A stretch of DNA of 64,000 nucleotides from assembly GCF_006337165.1 (NCBI RefSeq), contig NZ_CP040896.1, forward strand, positions 4,898,001 to 4,962,000, in the 5' to 3' direction. The translations under genes were made by a program, and so were the position numbers. The stretch is from Hymenobacter jejuensis (lineage in GTDB: Bacteria; Bacteroidota; Bacteroidia; Cytophagales; Hymenobacteraceae). Below the pieces are notes generated by a model. It did not search any database, was not told where the DNA came from, and saw only the letters and a list, made by a program, of their open reading frames with translations. Of the stretch, positions 48,995-57,943 are shown in pieces. Positions within the stretch are counted from its first letter, which is position 1; every line of letters starts with the position of its first letter.

Positions 48995-49639
48995 TTAGAC
49001 AGCCGGTTGGCCGCCCAAGAAATCGTACGTACGAATGATATCGAGGATTTTGATAAATGTATTACGGTCGAAAAAGAGCATCAGGGGCAATTCCACGGAA
49101 TTTTCTTTGTCAGAAAATTGGGTGATTACCGAGAAAATGAGCGGCTGCACCATGGGCTGATTGAAAATCAGGCTTTTTAGCGAGTCGGCGATGTTGCCGC
49201 GCGGTGCCCGCGGCGGCGCGCCGTAAATGTGGGCCTTGAGGATGTTGGCCAGCTGCGTTACCAAAGCGCCGGTGATGATGTTGCTGATTTCCAGCAACAA
49301 CGATTCCTGCATCGCATCAATTTCGATGGAATCGGGAACATTCATGCGCAAGCAAACCCGCGAGAGGCGCTGCACATGCTGCCCCGAAAAAAACATGAGC
49401 GTAGTACCGTTGAATTCGCCTTTGATATCGGACTGAATGATGGCGTGTGATCCCTCGTATTCGTGCACTCTGTCCAGAATGCTTCGTCCGGGTACAATAT
49501 CCAGGTTCGGAACTTCAAGCAGCACTTTCTCCTGCGCAATGACGGCGAAGGAATCAGCAGCCCTCGCCAAGCCAATGTTCAGAATTTCGCGGATGATGTC
49601 CCGCTCCAGCTCCGTCATGTGCAAATCCATATGAATCAA
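48995..49639 (-). CDS. cheC: CheC-type CheY-P phosphatase
   Basis: Protein of 214 residues with both copies of the CheC/FliY/CheX active-site pattern (D/S-x3-E-x2-N): DIIREILN near residue 14 and SLLLEISN near residue 113. Two sites mean an active phosphatase that removes phosphate from CheY. It is the last chemosensory gene of the operon, 56 bases after cheA. In Bacillus CheC works with CheD, which is not in the window. Presence of CheC instead of CheZ is normal outside Proteobacteria. Confidence 0.83.
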   Translation of the reverse strand: MIHMDLHMTELERDIIREILNIGLARAADSFAVIAQEKVLLEVPNLDIVPGRSILDRVHEYEGSHAIIQSDIKGEFNGTTLMFFSGQHVQRLSRVCLRMNVPDSIEIDAMQESLLLEISNIITGALVTQLANILKAHIYGAPPRAPRGNIADSLKSLIFNQPMVQPLIFSVITQFSDKENSVELPLMLFFDRNTFIKILDIIRTYDFLGGQPAV

Positions 49640-49695: not shown

Positions 49696-51327
49696 TTATG
49701 GTCGCTTGGCTAAGAAAAGTCGAGTTAGGGCCGGGACATCCAGCACCAAACATACTTGTCCGCTGCCCAGCACCGTAACACCACCGAACAAATCGATGGT
49801 ATCCAATGGCTTGCTCATGGGCTTGATTACGATGTTCTGCTGGCGCAGAAACCGGTCAACAATCAATCCCAACTTGCGGTTATTATAATTAACAATGATG
49901 ATCTCTTGCCGACCGCGTAGCTCCTCGCGGGTAGCCAGTGGCAACGGACCGTCGCTGTTGTGAAGCAGGCGGCGCAAATCTACTACGGGTACGTTCTCCC
50001 CCATTACTTCAGCCAGCAACAAACCTCCCACAACGTGCAGTTGGTCAGGCCATAGCGAAACAACAGAATCGGTATGCATGAGCGGAATCGCGTAGCTGCG
50101 TTCTTCCAACTCAAACAACAGAGCCCCCTTTACGGCAATGGAAGTAGGCAATACTAGCGTGAAAGTTGTACCCTGGCCCAATACCGAATCTACCCGCAAC
50201 TGACCACCAAGTGAATCGATGGCCAGCTTTACGACATCGAGCCCGACGCCGCGCCCCGAAATCTCGGTGACTTCCTTCGCCATTGAAAATCCAGGCTCGA
50301 AAAGAAAAGCCCGCACTGCATTGTCATCTAAGCCAGCAGCGGCCTCAGCAGTGGTCAGACCTCGTTCAACGGCTTTGCGCCGTACGCTTTCTATGTTGAT
50401 GCCGCGGCCGTCATCAGAGACGTGAATCAAAACGTCGTCACGTTCGGTTTGGGCGTTGATGGTGAGCTTACCACGCGCTGGCTTCCCTGCTTTCTGCCGC
50501 TCTGCCGGCGTCTCAATACCGTGTCCGATGGCGTTGCGCACTAAGTGAAGCAGTGCGTCCGTGATGATTTGGAGAATGTTACGGTCAATTTGAATATCCT
50601 GACCGTTCAGTACCAACTCGATTTCCTTGTTCTCTGCCGTGGCAACGTCCCGGACGACACGGGGAAATTTATTGAACAACGATCCAACGTTCACCAAGCG
50701 CGCGTCCATAACGCTGTACTGTAGCTCGTCGGCAATGCGGAACAGGTGAGTCGCAGCGGTTTGAAGGGCGGGGCTTCCTATTTCCTGGCTAAGGGTAAGA
50801 ATGCGGTCCCGGTCGATAATCAGCTCGCCCACCAGATTCATCAGATGATCGAGCTTTTTGATCTGGATATACACCAGATCTGACAGCTCTAACTTGCGGT
50901 TAGCATTCTCATCGGAATTATCAACATCCTCAATATCAGGCTCTTCCCCACGCACCAGCCGATCGAGGTTGGCTTGCAAGGCCTCCACATTCGGCGTCGG
51001 GTTATTTTCGTCAACCGCCCGGATCATGTCGCCCAGCGCATCGACCCCAGCAAATAATACCGGCACGATGGAGCCCGCAAATTCGCGCTCTTTGCTTCGG
51101 ATGAGGCCAAAAATGGTTTCCATGCCGTGGGCTACCTCACCGATGTCGGCGTAGCCCATGGCGCGTGCATTGGCCTTTAGGTTGTGCATGAGCCGGAATA
51201 GCTCATTAAGTGCACGTTCGTCCGCAGGGTTTTTCTCTAACTCGCTGATGTGGCGGCCCATCGAGTCATAATACTCGAGTGCTTCCGCCATAAAGATTTC
51301 TCGGTATTCCTGCTCCCGTGTCTTCAT
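49696..51327 (-). CDS. cheA: CheA-type chemotaxis histidine kinase without P2
   Basis: Kinase of 543 residues. P1 Hpt domain about 1-105 with phospho-acceptor His48 in RLMHNLKANARAMGY, dimerisation P3 about 150-205 (DHLMNLVGELIIDRDRI), P4 ATPase about 205-390 (HLVRNAIGHGIETP, VSDDGRGINIES, GRGVGLDVVKLAIDSLGGQ) and a CheW-like P5 to the end. The linker between P1 and P3 is only about 45 residues, so the CheY-binding P2 domain appears absent. In the N box the usual DHG reads GHG. Its ATG overlaps the cheB stop (TAATG), so translation is coupled. Confidence 0.92.
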   Translation of the reverse strand: MKTREQEYREIFMAEALEYYDSMGRHISELEKNPADERALNELFRLMHNLKANARAMGYADIGEVAHGMETIFGLIRSKEREFAGSIVPVLFAGVDALGDMIRAVDENNPTPNVEALQANLDRLVRGEEPDIEDVDNSDENANRKLELSDLVYIQIKKLDHLMNLVGELIIDRDRILTLSQEIGSPALQTAATHLFRIADELQYSVMDARLVNVGSLFNKFPRVVRDVATAENKEIELVLNGQDIQIDRNILQIITDALLHLVRNAIGHGIETPAERQKAGKPARGKLTINAQTERDDVLIHVSDDGRGINIESVRRKAVERGLTTAEAAAGLDDNAVRAFLFEPGFSMAKEVTEISGRGVGLDVVKLAIDSLGGQLRVDSVLGQGTTFTLVLPTSIAVKGALLFELEERSYAIPLMHTDSVVSLWPDQLHVVGGLLLAEVMGENVPVVDLRRLLHNSDGPLPLATREELRGRQEIIIVNYNNRKLGLIVDRFLRQQNIVIKPMSKPLDTIDLFGGVTVLGSGQVCLVLDVPALTRLFLAKRP

Positions 51328-52406
51328 TAGGCGGCGTGTAGAGGAGCAGAAATTGGCAAAGGTCGCTTCAGACGCAGAGCAGCCGAAAATCGCTGAATAA
51401 ACTCGGCTATTTCGGAGAGCGGTAACACGGCATTGGCATAACCGGCTTCGATCACCGACTTAGGCATGCCGAAGACAGCGGAGGTAGCTTCGTTTTGCGC
51501 GAGCACCGTGCCACCGTGCTGCCGGATGCTAAGCGCCCCAAGTGTGCCATCCTGCCCGAGCCCAGTCAGCACAACTCCCAGCACCTTGCGACCCGCAGTT
51601 GCGGCTGCAGATTGCATCAGCAAATTGATGGAAGGCTCATCATAGCCGGATACGTATTCAGATGTCAGAGCCGTTTCCCACGCTTGCCAAGGGCTGTCGG
51701 ACACAGGGCGCACCGTAATGTTATAACCTCCCGGAGCCACAAGTATTTTTCCAGCTTCCAGTCGGGTACCCGTATGCGCAACGGCAATCGGCAGCGTGGT
51801 AACCTTGCTCAGCCGCTCAACTAATGAAAGCGTGAAGTGAGCCGGCAGGTGCACCGCAATGATCACGGCACACGAAATCGAAGCGGGAAAAGAACGTATC
51901 AAGGCTTCGACTGCCGCCGAGCCCCCCGTAGAAGCCCCGATTAGCACGATGCTATTGGGTAGCGCAGTTACCTGAGCCCGACGCGCTACCACGGCCTGAG
52001 TTGCGGCGATAAGTTGAGGCTTGGCAGCCCTAATTTTGCGCAACAGTTCCCGTCGCCAATCGGAATACCCGGGGTCGTTCGCAGGCAGCAAAGGCTTGAT
52101 AACGTCGTACACATGCCACCGGGCAGCTTCGCGCAAAGCGCCCCCAAGCAACGTGGTGGCGCTGTATATCAAAACCGGCACGGCATACTGGCGTGCCAAC
52201 TGCTCCAGATCCAGAAGTTGCTCTTCTCCTATCACAACCAGTCCCGGCCGCAGGCGCCGGGCCATGGTTACTAACTCGGTCGCATTACCTGCTACGCCCG
52301 TCACCTGTAAATCGGTCTGTGCGCGTAGCAATTTGGTAAGCTCCAGCCGCACAAACACGGGCAGGTTACCGAGCAAAATTGTGAAAGGAGAAGTAAGGTG
52401 GGGCAC
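51327..52406 (-). CDS. cheB: CheB methylesterase with degenerate receiver domain
   Basis: Protein of 359 residues. The C-terminal methylesterase domain is complete: Ser159 in IGASTGGSAAVEAL, His in IAVHLPAHF, Asp in GLGQDGTLGAL. The N-terminal 125 residues have the receiver fold but lack the acceptor Asp (expected LDxxMP reads VIGEEQL, Gly60) and the acidic pair (LGNL at 12-15 instead of VDDS); the conserved Ser/Thr (YSATT) and Lys (VIKP) remain. It therefore cannot be switched on by CheA phosphorylation in the usual way. It removes methyl groups from receptor glutamates. Confidence 0.9.
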   Translation of the reverse strand: MPHLTSPFTILLGNLPVFVRLELTKLLRAQTDLQVTGVAGNATELVTMARRLRPGLVVIGEEQLLDLEQLARQYAVPVLIYSATTLLGGALREAARWHVYDVIKPLLPANDPGYSDWRRELLRKIRAAKPQLIAATQAVVARRAQVTALPNSIVLIGASTGGSAAVEALIRSFPASISCAVIIAVHLPAHFTLSLVERLSKVTTLPIAVAHTGTRLEAGKILVAPGGYNITVRPVSDSPWQAWETALTSEYVSGYDEPSINLLMQSAAATAGRKVLGVVLTGLGQDGTLGALSIRQHGGTVLAQNEATSAVFGMPKSVIEAGYANAVLPLSEIAEFIQRFSAALRLKRPLPISAPLHAA

Positions 52407-52474: not shown

Positions 52475-52858
52475 CTATACTGGGTCCGACTCAGGACCCT
52501 GAAGCGCGCCCCCAACGATTTCCAGTACTTTTTCTTCCGAGAAGGGCTTTACGATGTAAGCAGTAGCACCGCTTTCAAGTGCCTCATTCACAATCACTTC
52601 CTGGCCTACGGCACTGCACATTACAACTTTCACATCGGGCTGCTCCTGACGGATGCTCTTGAGGACATCCAAGCCTGTGTTGTCGGGCAGAATTACATCT
52701 AGAGTAATCAGGTCGGGCTTGGTGTCAATTGCCATTTCTACTGCTTGCTGACCGTTGGCAGCTTCGCCAACTACGTCGTAGCCAGCATCAGAAAGCATAT
52801 TTTTAAGCATCGTGCGCATGTAAAAGGAGTCGTCCACGATGAGAATGCGATTTTTCAT
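52475..52858 (-). CDS. cheY: CheY-type single-domain response regulator
   Basis: Receiver protein of 127 residues. Complete phosphorylation site: acidic pair in LIVDDSFYM, acceptor Asp54 in ITLDVILPDNTG, Ser in VVMCSAVG and Lys in AYIVKPFSEEK. It would carry the signal from CheA to an unknown target and be dephosphorylated by CheC. 60 bases after cheW and 68 before cheB, same strand. Confidence 0.94.
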   Translation of the reverse strand: MKNRILIVDDSFYMRTMLKNMLSDAGYDVVGEAANGQQAVEMAIDTKPDLITLDVILPDNTGLDVLKSIRQEQPDVKVVMCSAVGQEVIVNEALESGATAYIVKPFSEEKVLEIVGGALQGPESDPV

Positions 52859-52918: not shown

Positions 52919-53449
52919 TCAGGCTTTTGTACGGGCAGTGCTAGACGAAGATTCTCCTTTGGGCTGCAACTGCATGATTTCTGAGGGCGTCAGCAACTTC
53001 AGCATATCCAATACAATGATAATCCGGCTTTCGACCCGAGCAATTCCTTCAATGTATTTGTCGTGGATGTTGATGTCCTGAATCAACTCCGGAGCTTTCT
53101 CGATCGCAGAAACCGGAATGGTCAGCGGTTGCGGCACTTCCCGCACCACAATTCCAATGGTATAATCCTTGGCTTCGATTGCAAGCGTGTAGCTTACCGT
53201 AGGTATCTCCTGTCCCTTCGAACGCAGCGCAAAACGCTCTTCGAGGTCAATGATGGCGATGATGTCGCCCCGCAAATTGGCAATGCCTTTTACAAAAGCA
53301 GGCGTTTTGGGCATCCGAGCTACTTCCGGAGTAATCGTTACTTCTTTTACCTGTTCAATGCGAATGCCGTATTCTTCTTCGCCCAATCGGAACACGATCA
53401 GTTGCAGAAGAGCGTCGGGTTTGGAAGTTTTTTTCTCGTCAGTCACCAC
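52919..53449 (-). CDS. cheW: CheW coupling protein
   Basis: Protein of about 176 residues with one CheW domain: LIVFRLGEEEYGIRIEQVKEV, KGIANLRGDIIAIIDLEERF, IGIVVREV, GIARVESRIIIVLDM. It bridges the poly-HAMP receptor and CheA. Start uncertain: an ATG at 53503 is in frame, but a promoter-like CATCTTTTG lies between it and two successive GTG codons (53449, 53446), so a GTG start is preferred. A Ser-rich C-terminal tail (GESSSSTARTKA) is unusual. Confidence 0.9.
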   Translation of the reverse strand: MVTDEKKTSKPDALLQLIVFRLGEEEYGIRIEQVKEVTITPEVARMPKTPAFVKGIANLRGDIIAIIDLEERFALRSKGQEIPTVSYTLAIEAKDYTIGIVVREVPQPLTIPVSAIEKAPELIQDINIHDKYIEGIARVESRIIIVLDMLKLLTPSEIMQLQPKGESSSSTARTKA

Positions 53450-53528
53450 TTTATCAGCCGTGCAAAAGATGGTAAAAGCAAGTAACTGCCGATGCATACA
53501 CACGCATCAGCAGCACTTTGCCAACTAG

Positions 53529-53542
53529 TTGATTGTCAATTA
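53529..53542 (-). repeat. recurring 3'-end element at chemoreceptor stop codon
   Basis: TTGATTGTCAA (one mismatch to the core) followed directly by TTA, the reverse complement of the receptor TAA stop (53540-53542). Confidence 0.5.
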
Positions 53543-56500
53543 TTTAGCCTTTGACTTTGAGCGGCTCGATTTGGCAGTTGCTTGGTCAATATCGGGCTTA
53601 TTGGCCGCGGTATCAGCTGCCTTGCGCCGCCCATTGGGCTTCTTCGGTTCAGAGGCTGCGCTTTTGCCATTTTGTTGAATTGCCGCTTCTGCAGCACCCA
53701 ATCTCATTGTCCGGTTCCGCTCCCGACGTGAAGCAGCAGGTTTGGCAGCGGGTTCCGGTTCGCCTTTGCGCTTCATGGAGGCAGCAGGCGTCATCAGCGC
53801 AGCAACTTTCCGCGTCAGGCGGTCCATCGCTTGGTGATGCGTTCCGTTGGTGCTCGGTGCCGGGGCGGGGGCAACTAACCGACGCAGGCCCCGACGAACA
53901 GGTTCAGGCTCCGGCTCTGGCTCAATTTCTTCGAGCAGTTGGAAGGCCGACAACCCAACCTGCAGGTCATCAGCGATATCTGTGAGGTTCTGGCTGGAAG
54001 TGGTCAGTTCCTGCATCGACGACGAAAGTTGCTTGGCTGTGCTCGCCACCTGCTGCGTGCCCGACGCCGTCTGCTCGGCAATGGCTACCACTTCTTCCAC
54101 GTATTTCACCACGTCACCGATACTGGCTTTCTGTACTTCTGTAGCGGTAAGAATGTCGCGGGAGGTACGGAGCGTTTCGCCACTGCTGGTCGCAATGTTT
54201 TTGAAGGCGCTTGAGGCTTCAAACGTGGCGTTTTTGCCTTTCAATACACGGCCTTCCATCGTCGAGATAGCGGTTGCGGCGGAAGTAGTGTCTTTGCGAA
54301 CGTCTTCTACCAGCGTGGCAATCTCACTAGCCGACTTGCGCGAGCCTTCCGCCAATTTGCGAATCTCTTCGGCTACTACCGCAAAGCCTCGACCTGCTTC
54401 TCCGGCTCGGGCTGCTTCAATGGCGGCGTTTAGAGCCAGCAAGTTGGTTTGCGAAGCGATGTCGGTGATAACGCTCAACGACTTGCTGATTTCCTGCGAA
54501 CGGGTGCTGAGTACTTCGATAGTTTTAGAAGTCTGCGAAGCCGCATTGGAAATTTCTTCCATGTTCTTCACCACTTCGGCTACCGTTTTCAGACCCAGCT
54601 GCGAAGTTTGCTCACCCAGGATAGCTGATTTGTTTACGATGTCGGCTTTGCCAGCGGTCTCCTTCGTGGCCTGCATGATTTCTTCGATCAGCTTGAATGC
54701 CTGGTCAGTTTTAAGTGCTTGATTCTGAGCACCTTCTGCCATTTGCTGCATTGCCAGAGCTACGTCAACCGTTACGCGGCTCATCTCTTGGCCTTTCGAT
54801 GCCATTTCCTCCGACGACTCGCCCACAATCTGCGACGATTCGTTGATTTCGCCGAGCAGTTCGTTGAGGTTTTCAACGGCCAGGTTCAAAGCATTTGACA
54901 TGGCCTCGATATCACCAGCCGTCTGAATACCAACGCGTTGCGTCAGATCGCCTTCCGAGATGGCTCGTACCACGCGGCTTACTTCCAATACTGGCGAAGC
55001 AATGGATTCAATAAGCGCGTTAAGCGTATCAACGATTTCTTTCCAAGATCCGCTCACGCCGCCTACGGTGGCGCGTTCGGTCAGCTTGCCTTCGACCCCA
55101 GCTACTTTGGCTACGCGGCTTACTTCGAGTGCCAAGCGATTCAGGTCGTCCACCATGCGGTTGATCGTGTCCGCCAGCTCTGCTACTTCGCCTTTGGCAT
55201 CCAGCGTCAGCTTCTGAGTCAAGTCACCTTGCGATACGCTGGTTACTACGCGGATAATGCCACGTACTTGGGTTGTCAGATTTGCCGCCATCGTGTTTAC
55301 GTTGTCGGTCAAATCCTTCCACACGCCGTTTACATTCGGCACGTTGGCCTGACCGCCCAAGCGGCCTTCCGTGCCTACTTCCTGCGCCACGCGGGTTACC
55401 TCGCCGGCAAAGATGTTGAGCGAGTCCACCATGCGGTTGATGTTGTCTTTCAGGTCGAGTAATTCGCCTTTCACATCAACTGAAACCTTCTGACTCAAGT
55501 CGCCGCGAGCTACGGCGGTAGTTACGTTGGCAATGTCCCGCACCTGAGAAGTCAGTGAGGCGGCCATCGTGTTCACGTTGTCCGTTAGGTCCTTCCAAGT
55601 GCCGCGCACGTTGGGCACATTGGCCTGGCCACCCAGTTTTCCTTCCGTACCCACTTCGCGGGCCACGCGGGTTACTTCGTCGCCGAAAGTATTGAGCGAG
55701 TCCACCATCTGGTTGAGGTTTTCCTTCAGCTGCAATAGCTCGCCGCGCACATTAACTGTGATTTTCTGGCTCAAGTCACCCCGAGCTACGGCGGTGGCCA
55801 CGTTGGCAATGTCCCGTACCTGACTCGTCAGGTTCGAGGCCATCGTGTTCACGTTGTCCGTCAAGTCTTTCCAGGTACCGCTAACGCTTGGCACGTTGGC
55901 CTGGCCACCCAGAATACCCTCGGTACCCACTTCGCGGGCCACGCGGGTTACTTCGCCGGCAAAGATGTTGAGCGAGTCCACCATCTGGTTCAGAATATTC
56001 TTCAGATCCAGCAGCTCGCCTTTTACATCGACCGTGATTTTTTGGGTTAGGTCGCCTTTGGCTACGGCGGTGGCCACGTTGGCAATGTCTCGTACCTGAG
56101 AAGTCAGGTTCGAGGCCATCGTGTTCACGTTGTCCGTCAATTCTTTCCAGGTACCACCAACACGAGGCACGTTGGCTTGGCCACCCAACTTTCCTTCCGT
56201 GCCCACTTCGCGGGCCACGCGGGTTACTTCGTCGCCGAAGATGTTGAGCGAGTCCACCATCTGGTTCAAGATATTCTTGAGTTCCAGGATTTCGCCCTTC
56301 ACGTTTACCGTCATCTTCTGGCTCAAGTCGCCGCGAGCTACGGCGGTGGCCACGTTGGCAATGTCTCGCACCTGACTGGTCAGGTTCGAGGCCATGTTGT
56401 TTACGTTGTCGGTCAACTCCTTCCACACACCCGCGACATTCGGTACGGAGGCCTGACCACCGAGTTTGCCTTCCGTGCCTACTTCGAGGGCCACGCGGGT

Positions 56501-57943
56501 TACCTCGCCGGCGAACAGGTTGAGCGAGTCCACCATCTGGTTCAGGTTCTGCTTGAGTTGCAGCAGCTCGCCCTTCACGTCCACCGTAATCTTTTGGCTC
56601 AAATCACCCCGGGCTACGGCAGTGGCCACGTTGGCAATGTCCCGCACCTGACTGGTCAGGTTTGAGGCCATATAGTTCACATTATCAGTAAGTTCTTTCC
56701 ATACGCCGGCCACATTCGGTACGGAGGCCTGGCCGCCCAAGCGGCCTTCGGTGCCTACCTCCTGCGCTACGCGGGTTACCTCCCCGGCAAACAGGTTGAG
56801 CGAGTCCACCATCTGGTTGAGGTTCTGCTTCAACTGCAGCAGCTCGCCTTTTACATCGACGGTGATTTTCTGCGACAAGTCGCCTTTGGCCACCGCCGTG
56901 GCCACGTTAGCAATGTCTCGAACTTGACTCGTCAAGTTCGAGGCCATGTTGTTTACGTTGTCCGTCAGGTCTTTCCAGACCCCGCTCACGTTGGGTACGG
57001 AGGCCTGGCCGCCGAGTTTGCCTTCTGTGCCTACTTCGAGGGCCACGCGGGTTACCTCGCCGGCGAACAGGTTGAGCGAATCCACCATCTGGTTCAGGTT
57101 CTGCTTGAGTTGCAGCAGCTCCCCCTTCACGTCCACCGTAATCTTTTGGGTCAAGTCGCCTTTGGCAACCGCCGTCGCCACGTTAGCAATGTCTCGAACT
57201 TGACTCGTCAAGTTCGAGGCCATCGTGTTCACGTTGTCCGTCAGGTCCTTCCACACGCCACCTACGTTCGGAACCGACGCCTGACCACCGAGTTTGCCTT
57301 CGGTGCCTACCTCCTGCGCCACGCGGGTTACTTCGCCGGCAAACAGGTTGAGGTTGTCGATGGTCTTGTTGATGGTTTCGGCCATCACTTTGAAGTCGCC
57401 CGATACCGGAATCTGGAAGGTTTCGTCCAGGTTGCCTTTCGAGATGTTCTTCAATACTTTGCCTACTTCCAATACCGGTACGGCAATGCTATCCACCAAG
57501 CCGTTGATATTGTTAATCATGTCGCGCCAGAAGCCCGACGCGTTTTCGGCTGAAGCACGGGCTTTCAGATTGCCCTCTACCCCAGCAACCTTCGAAATGC
57601 GCGACACTTCCCCCCCTACACCACCGATCATCTCCACCATCGAGTTGTAGGCTTCGGCGATTTCGGCGAAAATGTCGTCGTTCTGCTTAGTCAAACGCAC
57701 CGATACGTCGCCTTTCTTAAAGGCATCGAGCGCGTAAAGCACGCGGTTGAGCTGCTCATTAATATAATCGGCATCCTGCGTAGCTCCTGACCCCCGCGCA
57801 ATACCTCGTTTCCGGGTAATGTCGGCGCTGGTACGCGAGCCTGCAGGCAGCGCGGTACTCGCAGAAGAAATCGGAGTTACTGGAGCAGCCGGCGCAGTGG
57901 AATCCGTGCTAGCGGTGGTTTTGGTAATTTTACCTGAAGCCAT
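53540..57943 (-). CDS. soluble poly-HAMP methyl-accepting chemotaxis protein
   Basis: Chemoreceptor of 1467 residues with no transmembrane helix and no ligand-binding domain in view. Residues 1-60 are Ser/Thr/Ala-rich and disordered; 61-199 hold divergent HAMP units; 200-935 are eight near-identical 92-residue repeats, each with [44 protein letters not shown]; 936-1027 a diverged ninth unit; about 1028-1330 the signalling domain with the hairpin tip [20 protein letters not shown]; the last 130 residues are basic and low-complexity, rich in Lys, Arg, Ala and Pro. The repeats resemble those of fungal Nik1/Os-1 osmosensing kinases. First gene of the che operon. No CheR-binding pentapeptide at the C-terminus. 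Confidence 0.92.
55139..57346 (-). repeat. eight tandem 276-bp coding repeats (HAMP units)
   Basis: Residues 200-935 of the receptor consist of eight 92-codon units in exact register, with long identical stretches also at DNA level (for example GCCACGTTGGCAATGTC recurs). Such an array can expand or contract by recombination and can collapse in short-read assembly. Confidence 0.9.

Follow-up and report, generated by a model that had tools for sequence, protein, structure and literature searches.

Receptor methylation as a means of adaptation is regarded as a core part of chemosensory systems. Published work describes two ways of activating CheB, phosphorylation of its receiver domain and, to lesser effect, removal of that domain (PMC8609364), and reports that cheR and cheB prefer to share one operon (PMC2829493). 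For FrzG of Myxococcus xanthus, the published account gives a response-regulator domain that is largely degenerate in some families, with no absolute requirement (PMC4546325), and the CheB of Campylobacter jejuni is described as having no receiver domain (PMC3879368). With both of these in print, a non-functional receiver has precedents among CheB proteins. Here we describe a further case in Hymenobacter jejuensis and place it in the context of the chemosensory genes of its family, the Hymenobacteraceae.

A CheB with an intact triad and a degenerate receiver

The H. jejuensis genome is a single contig of 5.09 Mb. The 64,000-nucleotide stretch of it analysed here (the window, whose positions are used throughout) carries a six-gene chemosensory cluster on the minus strand that encodes an MCP, CheW, CheY, CheB, CheA and CheC. 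The cheB reading frame (51327..52406) is real, starts with GTG and specifies 359 residues arranged as a pseudo-receiver (residues ~1–112), a linker and a methylesterase/deamidase domain (residues ~150–342). The catalytic domain (51381..51959) matches the Pfam family CheB_methylest (PF01339) at 1.7e-53, scoring 181.3 bits where the cut-off is 24, and contains the Ser-His-Asp triad as S159 (51930-51932), H186 (51849-51851) and D286 (51549-51551). For the N-terminal domain (52071..52406) there is no Pfam match to Response_reg up to an E value of 0.1. The sole other Pfam row for the protein, Abhydrolase_3 (0.047), falls below the cut-off of that family.

Alignment with the CheB proteins of seven order-level relatives shows what has happened to the receiver. 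The phospho-acceptor position, at the end of strand β3, is Asp in all seven relatives and G60 in H. jejuensis (codon 52227..52229). The first acid of the pocket (Asp in five relatives, Glu in two) is N14, the second (Asp in all seven) is L15, and the five residues directly after the acceptor, following β3, are deleted. A Lys near the position of the conserved Lys is kept in H. jejuensis and in none of the other 26 intact Hymenobacter orthologues described below. The first-pass annotation had proposed a CheB with a dead receiver and an intact methylesterase triad, and the alignment bears out both points and places no other Asp in the pocket of the H. jejuensis protein. That annotation was right that the pocket is lost, but its reading of LGNL in place of VDDS is one place out of register, as V-D-D-S aligns with G13-N14-L15-P16.

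An AlphaFold2 model of CheB (mean pLDDT 87, pTM 0.59) shows the N-terminal domain folded as a receiver (Z 15–17 to solved receivers), with strand β3 ending at residue 60 and helix α3 starting at residue 61, and a catalytic domain that fits structure 3SFT at 1.4 Å. The model lies ~17 Å overall from the closed arrangement seen in 1A2O. A canonical outgroup CheB modelled as a control (L092; pTM 0.60) likewise lies 16.5 Å away and is not closed either, so a reading of active-site occlusion from the CheB model was dropped.

We read this CheB as a response-regulator enzyme that has lost the link to its kinase. Its receiver would be a folded pseudo-receiver in which the Mg2+-binding and phosphate-accepting residues are gone, so that CheA should no longer switch CheB, as far as the chemistry can be predicted from the sequence.

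Decay of the phosphorylation pocket across the Hymenobacteraceae

A search for orthologues among 99 relatives (long matches, E 7e-51 or better) located cheB in 29 of 61 Hymenobacter genomes, in 27 as an intact gene and in two with a split frame. The two split copies (G003, L087:4453-5582; G010, L088:4453-5624) each occupy two frames next to che genes that are otherwise whole, and represent either real decay or an assembly error. In all 27 intact orthologues, that of H. jejuensis included, the second pocket acid is Leu and the esterase triad is kept. The acceptor residue is G, S, A or T in 24 of them and Asp in the remaining three, which also lack the second pocket Asp. The loss of the pocket in all 27 orthologues shows that the receiver change is more than chance.

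The trait extends beyond the genus. A scan of a named collection, of which the best 80 of 442 loci were considered and which partly covers the same genomes as the 99-relative set, contained 67 Hymenobacteraceae CheBs by NCBI taxonomy (39 from Hymenobacter, 16 from Pontibacter/Botryobacter, 4 from Adhaeribacter and 8 from Rufibacter). Among these best 80, the D/E-D-D set is kept in none of the 67 family members (one, L200, being unreadable), in contrast to D-D-D in 13 of 13 rows from other lineages, and the triad is present in 67 of 67. The acceptor Asp alone is left in 3/39 Hymenobacter, 10/16 Pontibacter/Botryobacter, 4/4 Adhaeribacter and 0/8 Rufibacter rows of the best 80; one family CheB (L194) has E-E-D and another (L178), readable at the acceptor only, has Asn. 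Again within the best 80 of 442, all 39 Hymenobacter rows carry the five-residue deletion, and none of the 27 remaining family rows that could be read does. The CheB pocket thus decays in graded steps across the Hymenobacteraceae, and a dead receiver that had been taken as the property of a single gene is a trait of the family. Phosphorylation is less clearly impossible in the family CheBs with E-E-D or with the acceptor Asp alone.

Where the gene is kept, both domains look to be under constraint, with NG86 dN/dS values of 0.05–0.24 for the receiver and 0.03–0.17 for the catalytic domain in 12 pairs, which are few, not all independent and in several cases saturated (dS >1.5). CheB nevertheless changes faster than its neighbours: identity to the H. 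jejuensis proteins is 44–57% for CheB, against 78–83% for CheA and 86–93% for CheY. Residues L11, G13, L15, P16, R20 and L23 are conserved around the rewritten pocket.

Absence of cheB in two groups of Hymenobacter

In the 30 CheB-less Hymenobacter clusters that were fetched, cheB is absent while the MCP, CheW, CheY, CheA and CheC genes stay, and CheY and CheA are separated by 104–288 nt. Two further genomes without an orthologue (G028 and G035) are fragmentary and were left out of this set. A search of the 30 CheY–CheA gaps for cheB remnants gave nothing convincing; short matches among the 27 queries, of which the lowest E value among those listed was 0.005 on the reverse strand, were taken as chance. 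A tree of CheA sequences covering 67 rows (29 from genomes with cheB, 30 from CheB-less ones and 8 outgroups; built by a quick method with SH-aLRT support only) places the CheB-less rows in a group of 4 (starred, beside G008) and a group of 26 (support 92), which implies two changes on a tree whose root inside the genus is unsure owing to long outgroup branches. Because the outgroups carry cheB between CheY and CheA (L089, L090, L092, L093, L095 and L129), we read both changes as losses. cheB was therefore probably lost twice inside Hymenobacter, and one loss with a regain may be an alternative history. As many relatives manage without CheB, its role must be modulatory or lineage-specific.

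The remaining chemosensory genes

The genes around cheB, all on the minus strand, retain the features of a working pathway. CheY (52475..52858) has an intact Asp set (D9, D10 and D54). CheW (52919..53503) has an uncertain start codon. CheA (49696..51327), which occurs once in each of the 61 Hymenobacter genomes (as a partial copy in G028 and G035), has Hpt (H48), dimerisation, ATPase and CheW-like domains, with no Pfam match to a P2 domain between the Hpt and dimerisation domains. The CheC-like protein (48995..49639) has E-x2-N matches at residues 18, 42 and 117. Judged by the CheY Asp set, CheA H48 and the CheC motif, the rest of the path looks active, and the core route from MCP through CheA to CheY, reset by CheC, is probably intact.

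CheR is missing from the che loci of all 29 Hymenobacter genomes with cheB, all 30 without and 12 other family genomes; the loci compared share one gene order, and some stop at contig ends. The H. jejuensis cluster accordingly contains no CheR partner of the kind that defines a CheR/CheB adaptation module. Among order-level outgroups, CheR lies near Che genes in 7 of 10 loci (L090, L092, L093, L094, L095, L128 and L129) and is absent there in L089, L091 and L127. Genome-wide searches found no CheR match in 6 of the 27 genomes with intact cheB (G001, G006, G007, G013, G017 and G054) and a CheR domain elsewhere in the other 21, in frames of 1021–1533 aa. Hymenobacter CheR matches lie in frames of at least 720 aa, with the exception of a split frame (G010) and weak partial matches (G035 and G051). 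The sole CheR match in H. jejuensis is a 1044-aa CheB-CheR-PAS fusion ~1 Mb from the che cluster. There (L096:6524-11014) the fusion lies divergent to a 382-aa CheB frame with no receiver match.

Elsewhere in the family, 27 of 28 genomes have a CheR match somewhere (G105 has none), never positioned near CheA, and in 19 of the 28 there is a standalone CheR. We considered the standalone protein as the adaptation CheR and rejected it, since none of the 19 is near CheA (they are on another contig or at least 290 kb away). In the eight loci fetched from these 19 (L222-L229), the standalone CheR (276–289 aa) directly adjoins a receiver-less CheB frame (190–224 aa), and these pairs lie near CheY-like or long receiver-containing frames. 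A search for CheD in 37 Hymenobacter genomes and 28 others of the family found a match in none; it is present within the che cluster of two outgroups (G064 and G076), with no match in two others (G077 and G079).

A single receptor with conserved glutamines

The MCP gene of the cluster (53540..57943, minus strand) encodes the sole MCP found in the H. jejuensis genome, a 1467-aa protein that has nine or ten copies of HAMP and lacks a clear transmembrane stretch. All genomes searched likewise have one MCP (37/37 Hymenobacter and 28/28 others of the family). The C-terminal segment of the H. jejuensis MCP bears methylation-type motifs and contains Q1291 (54071-54073) and Q1297/Q1298 (54050-54055). 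In enteric receptors, Gln mimics methylated Glu. All three residues are Gln in every one of the 59 Hymenobacter MCPs compared, whether or not the genome has cheB, and Q1291 and Q1298 are also Gln in the 12 MCPs listed from other members of the family. Six outgroup MCPs have Glu at 1291 in every case and Glu or Gln (4 and 2, respectively) at 1298, a count from which L090 was dropped for having no search motif and L091, L094 and L128 were left out. Gln at 1291 and 1298 would fit, if weakly, a receptor fixed in one state.

The MCP sites were also considered as a record of CheB action and were rejected as such: Gln-to-Glu changes would be expected where cheB is absent, and there are none. The identity of the two residues with and without cheB thus gives no sign of CheB acting at 1291 and 1298. 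A loss of methylation-type motifs was likewise expected and not seen, with 1–3 strict matches per MCP irrespective of cheB, and the strict motifs in Hymenobacter MCPs are not fewer than in the outgroups.

Fate of receptor adaptation in the Hymenobacteraceae

The first-pass annotation had taken adaptation to be necessarily constitutive or under some other form of control. Its starting point, that CheA has lost phospho-control of CheB, is well supported at the level of sequence. Its premise of a working methylation loop is doubtful, because the cluster has no CheR, CheD was not found, six of the 27 cheB genomes have no CheR match and 30 relatives have no cheB. Methylation-based adaptation is therefore more likely to be absent than constitutive. 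We favour, with a probability of roughly 0.6, the reading that covalent receptor adaptation has been dismantled here, and that CheB, dispensable in some lineages, persists in others as an enzyme that works independently of phosphorylation. The receiver change would then be one part of a wider dismantling across the Hymenobacteraceae. Where kept, CheB would most likely be a phosphorylation-free deamidase/esterase whose substrate is the lone receptor or a different protein, which is the least certain step of the proposal. Against dismantling stand the CheR domains found elsewhere in most genomes, the retained MCP motifs and the likeness of Q1291 and Q1298 with and without cheB.

The first two of these points speak for a rival reading in which methylation adaptation still runs, a constitutively active CheB being paired with a CheR encoded away from the cluster and working in trans (the CheB-CheR-PAS fusion, for example). 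A CheR domain somewhere in 21 of 27 cheB genomes and 27 of 28 other family genomes would supply the enzyme, and the persistent methylation-type motifs its substrate. We judge this improbable, as six cheB genomes lack any CheR match, the only CheR of H. jejuensis is part of a distant fusion that has its own CheB domain and sits beside another CheB, and the 30 clusters without cheB keep their remaining genes. A little less improbable, though still unlikely, is that CheB is a functionless relic on its way out. Its absence from two groups, the split frame in 2 of 29 genomes and its low identity relative to CheA and CheY are what such a relic would show; an intact triad in 27 of 27 orthologues, low dN/dS in both domains and a receiver fold kept in the model are not.

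That constraint on the receiver, together with the conserved residues around its pocket, raises the possibility that the pseudo-receiver works as a regulated module that takes a new input, the esterase being controlled by a partner protein or a ligand instead of by phosphate; the conservation may reflect folding only, and we regard this as a minority possibility. A sequencing error or wrong gene model is refuted for practical purposes by the recurrence of the deletion and pocket loss in 27 genomes and in 39 of 39 Hymenobacter rows (best 80 of 442). Returning to the dismantling of covalent adaptation, the evidence suggests a chemotaxis-like pathway in the Hymenobacteraceae that runs without the usual memory loop. 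A broader version, which we put forward tentatively, is that the whole family may have a one-receptor, membrane-free chemosensory pathway without reversible methylation, in which the leftover CheB works as an enzyme without need of phosphate and either has acquired a new target or receives a new input through its pseudo-receiver.

Comparison with known systems

The cluster has neither CheR nor CheD, CheB appears to have a dead switch and two groups of close relatives lack cheB altogether, yet receptor, kinase, CheY and phosphatase persist. This makes the family a system for asking by what means, if any, one soluble receptor can adapt in the absence of methylation, and the matched relatives with and without CheB are the place to test what role remains for that protein. 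Open-access titles and abstracts contained, among the matches listed, no description of this family-wide state (no CheR in the cluster, no CheD, only one receptor and cheB absent more than once).

Compared with canonical CheB, as in Salmonella (1A2O) and P. atrosepticum (6YMZ), the H. jejuensis protein has the same two-domain layout, catalytic fold and triad, but it has neither the phospho-acceptor nor the acidic pocket, and its cluster has no CheR. The system resembles that of FrzG, as described, in having a CheB homologue with a degenerate receiver, and the FrzCD receptor of that group has a soluble N-terminal domain (PMC4546325). It differs in that Frz keeps a methyltransferase, FrzF, whereas the Hymenobacter cluster has neither CheR nor CheD and has no cheB in two groups. 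As described for C. jejuni, CheB in H. jejuensis would have no working receiver, although the C. jejuni domain is missing altogether (PMC3879368) and the one described here is predicted to persist as a folded pseudo-receiver.
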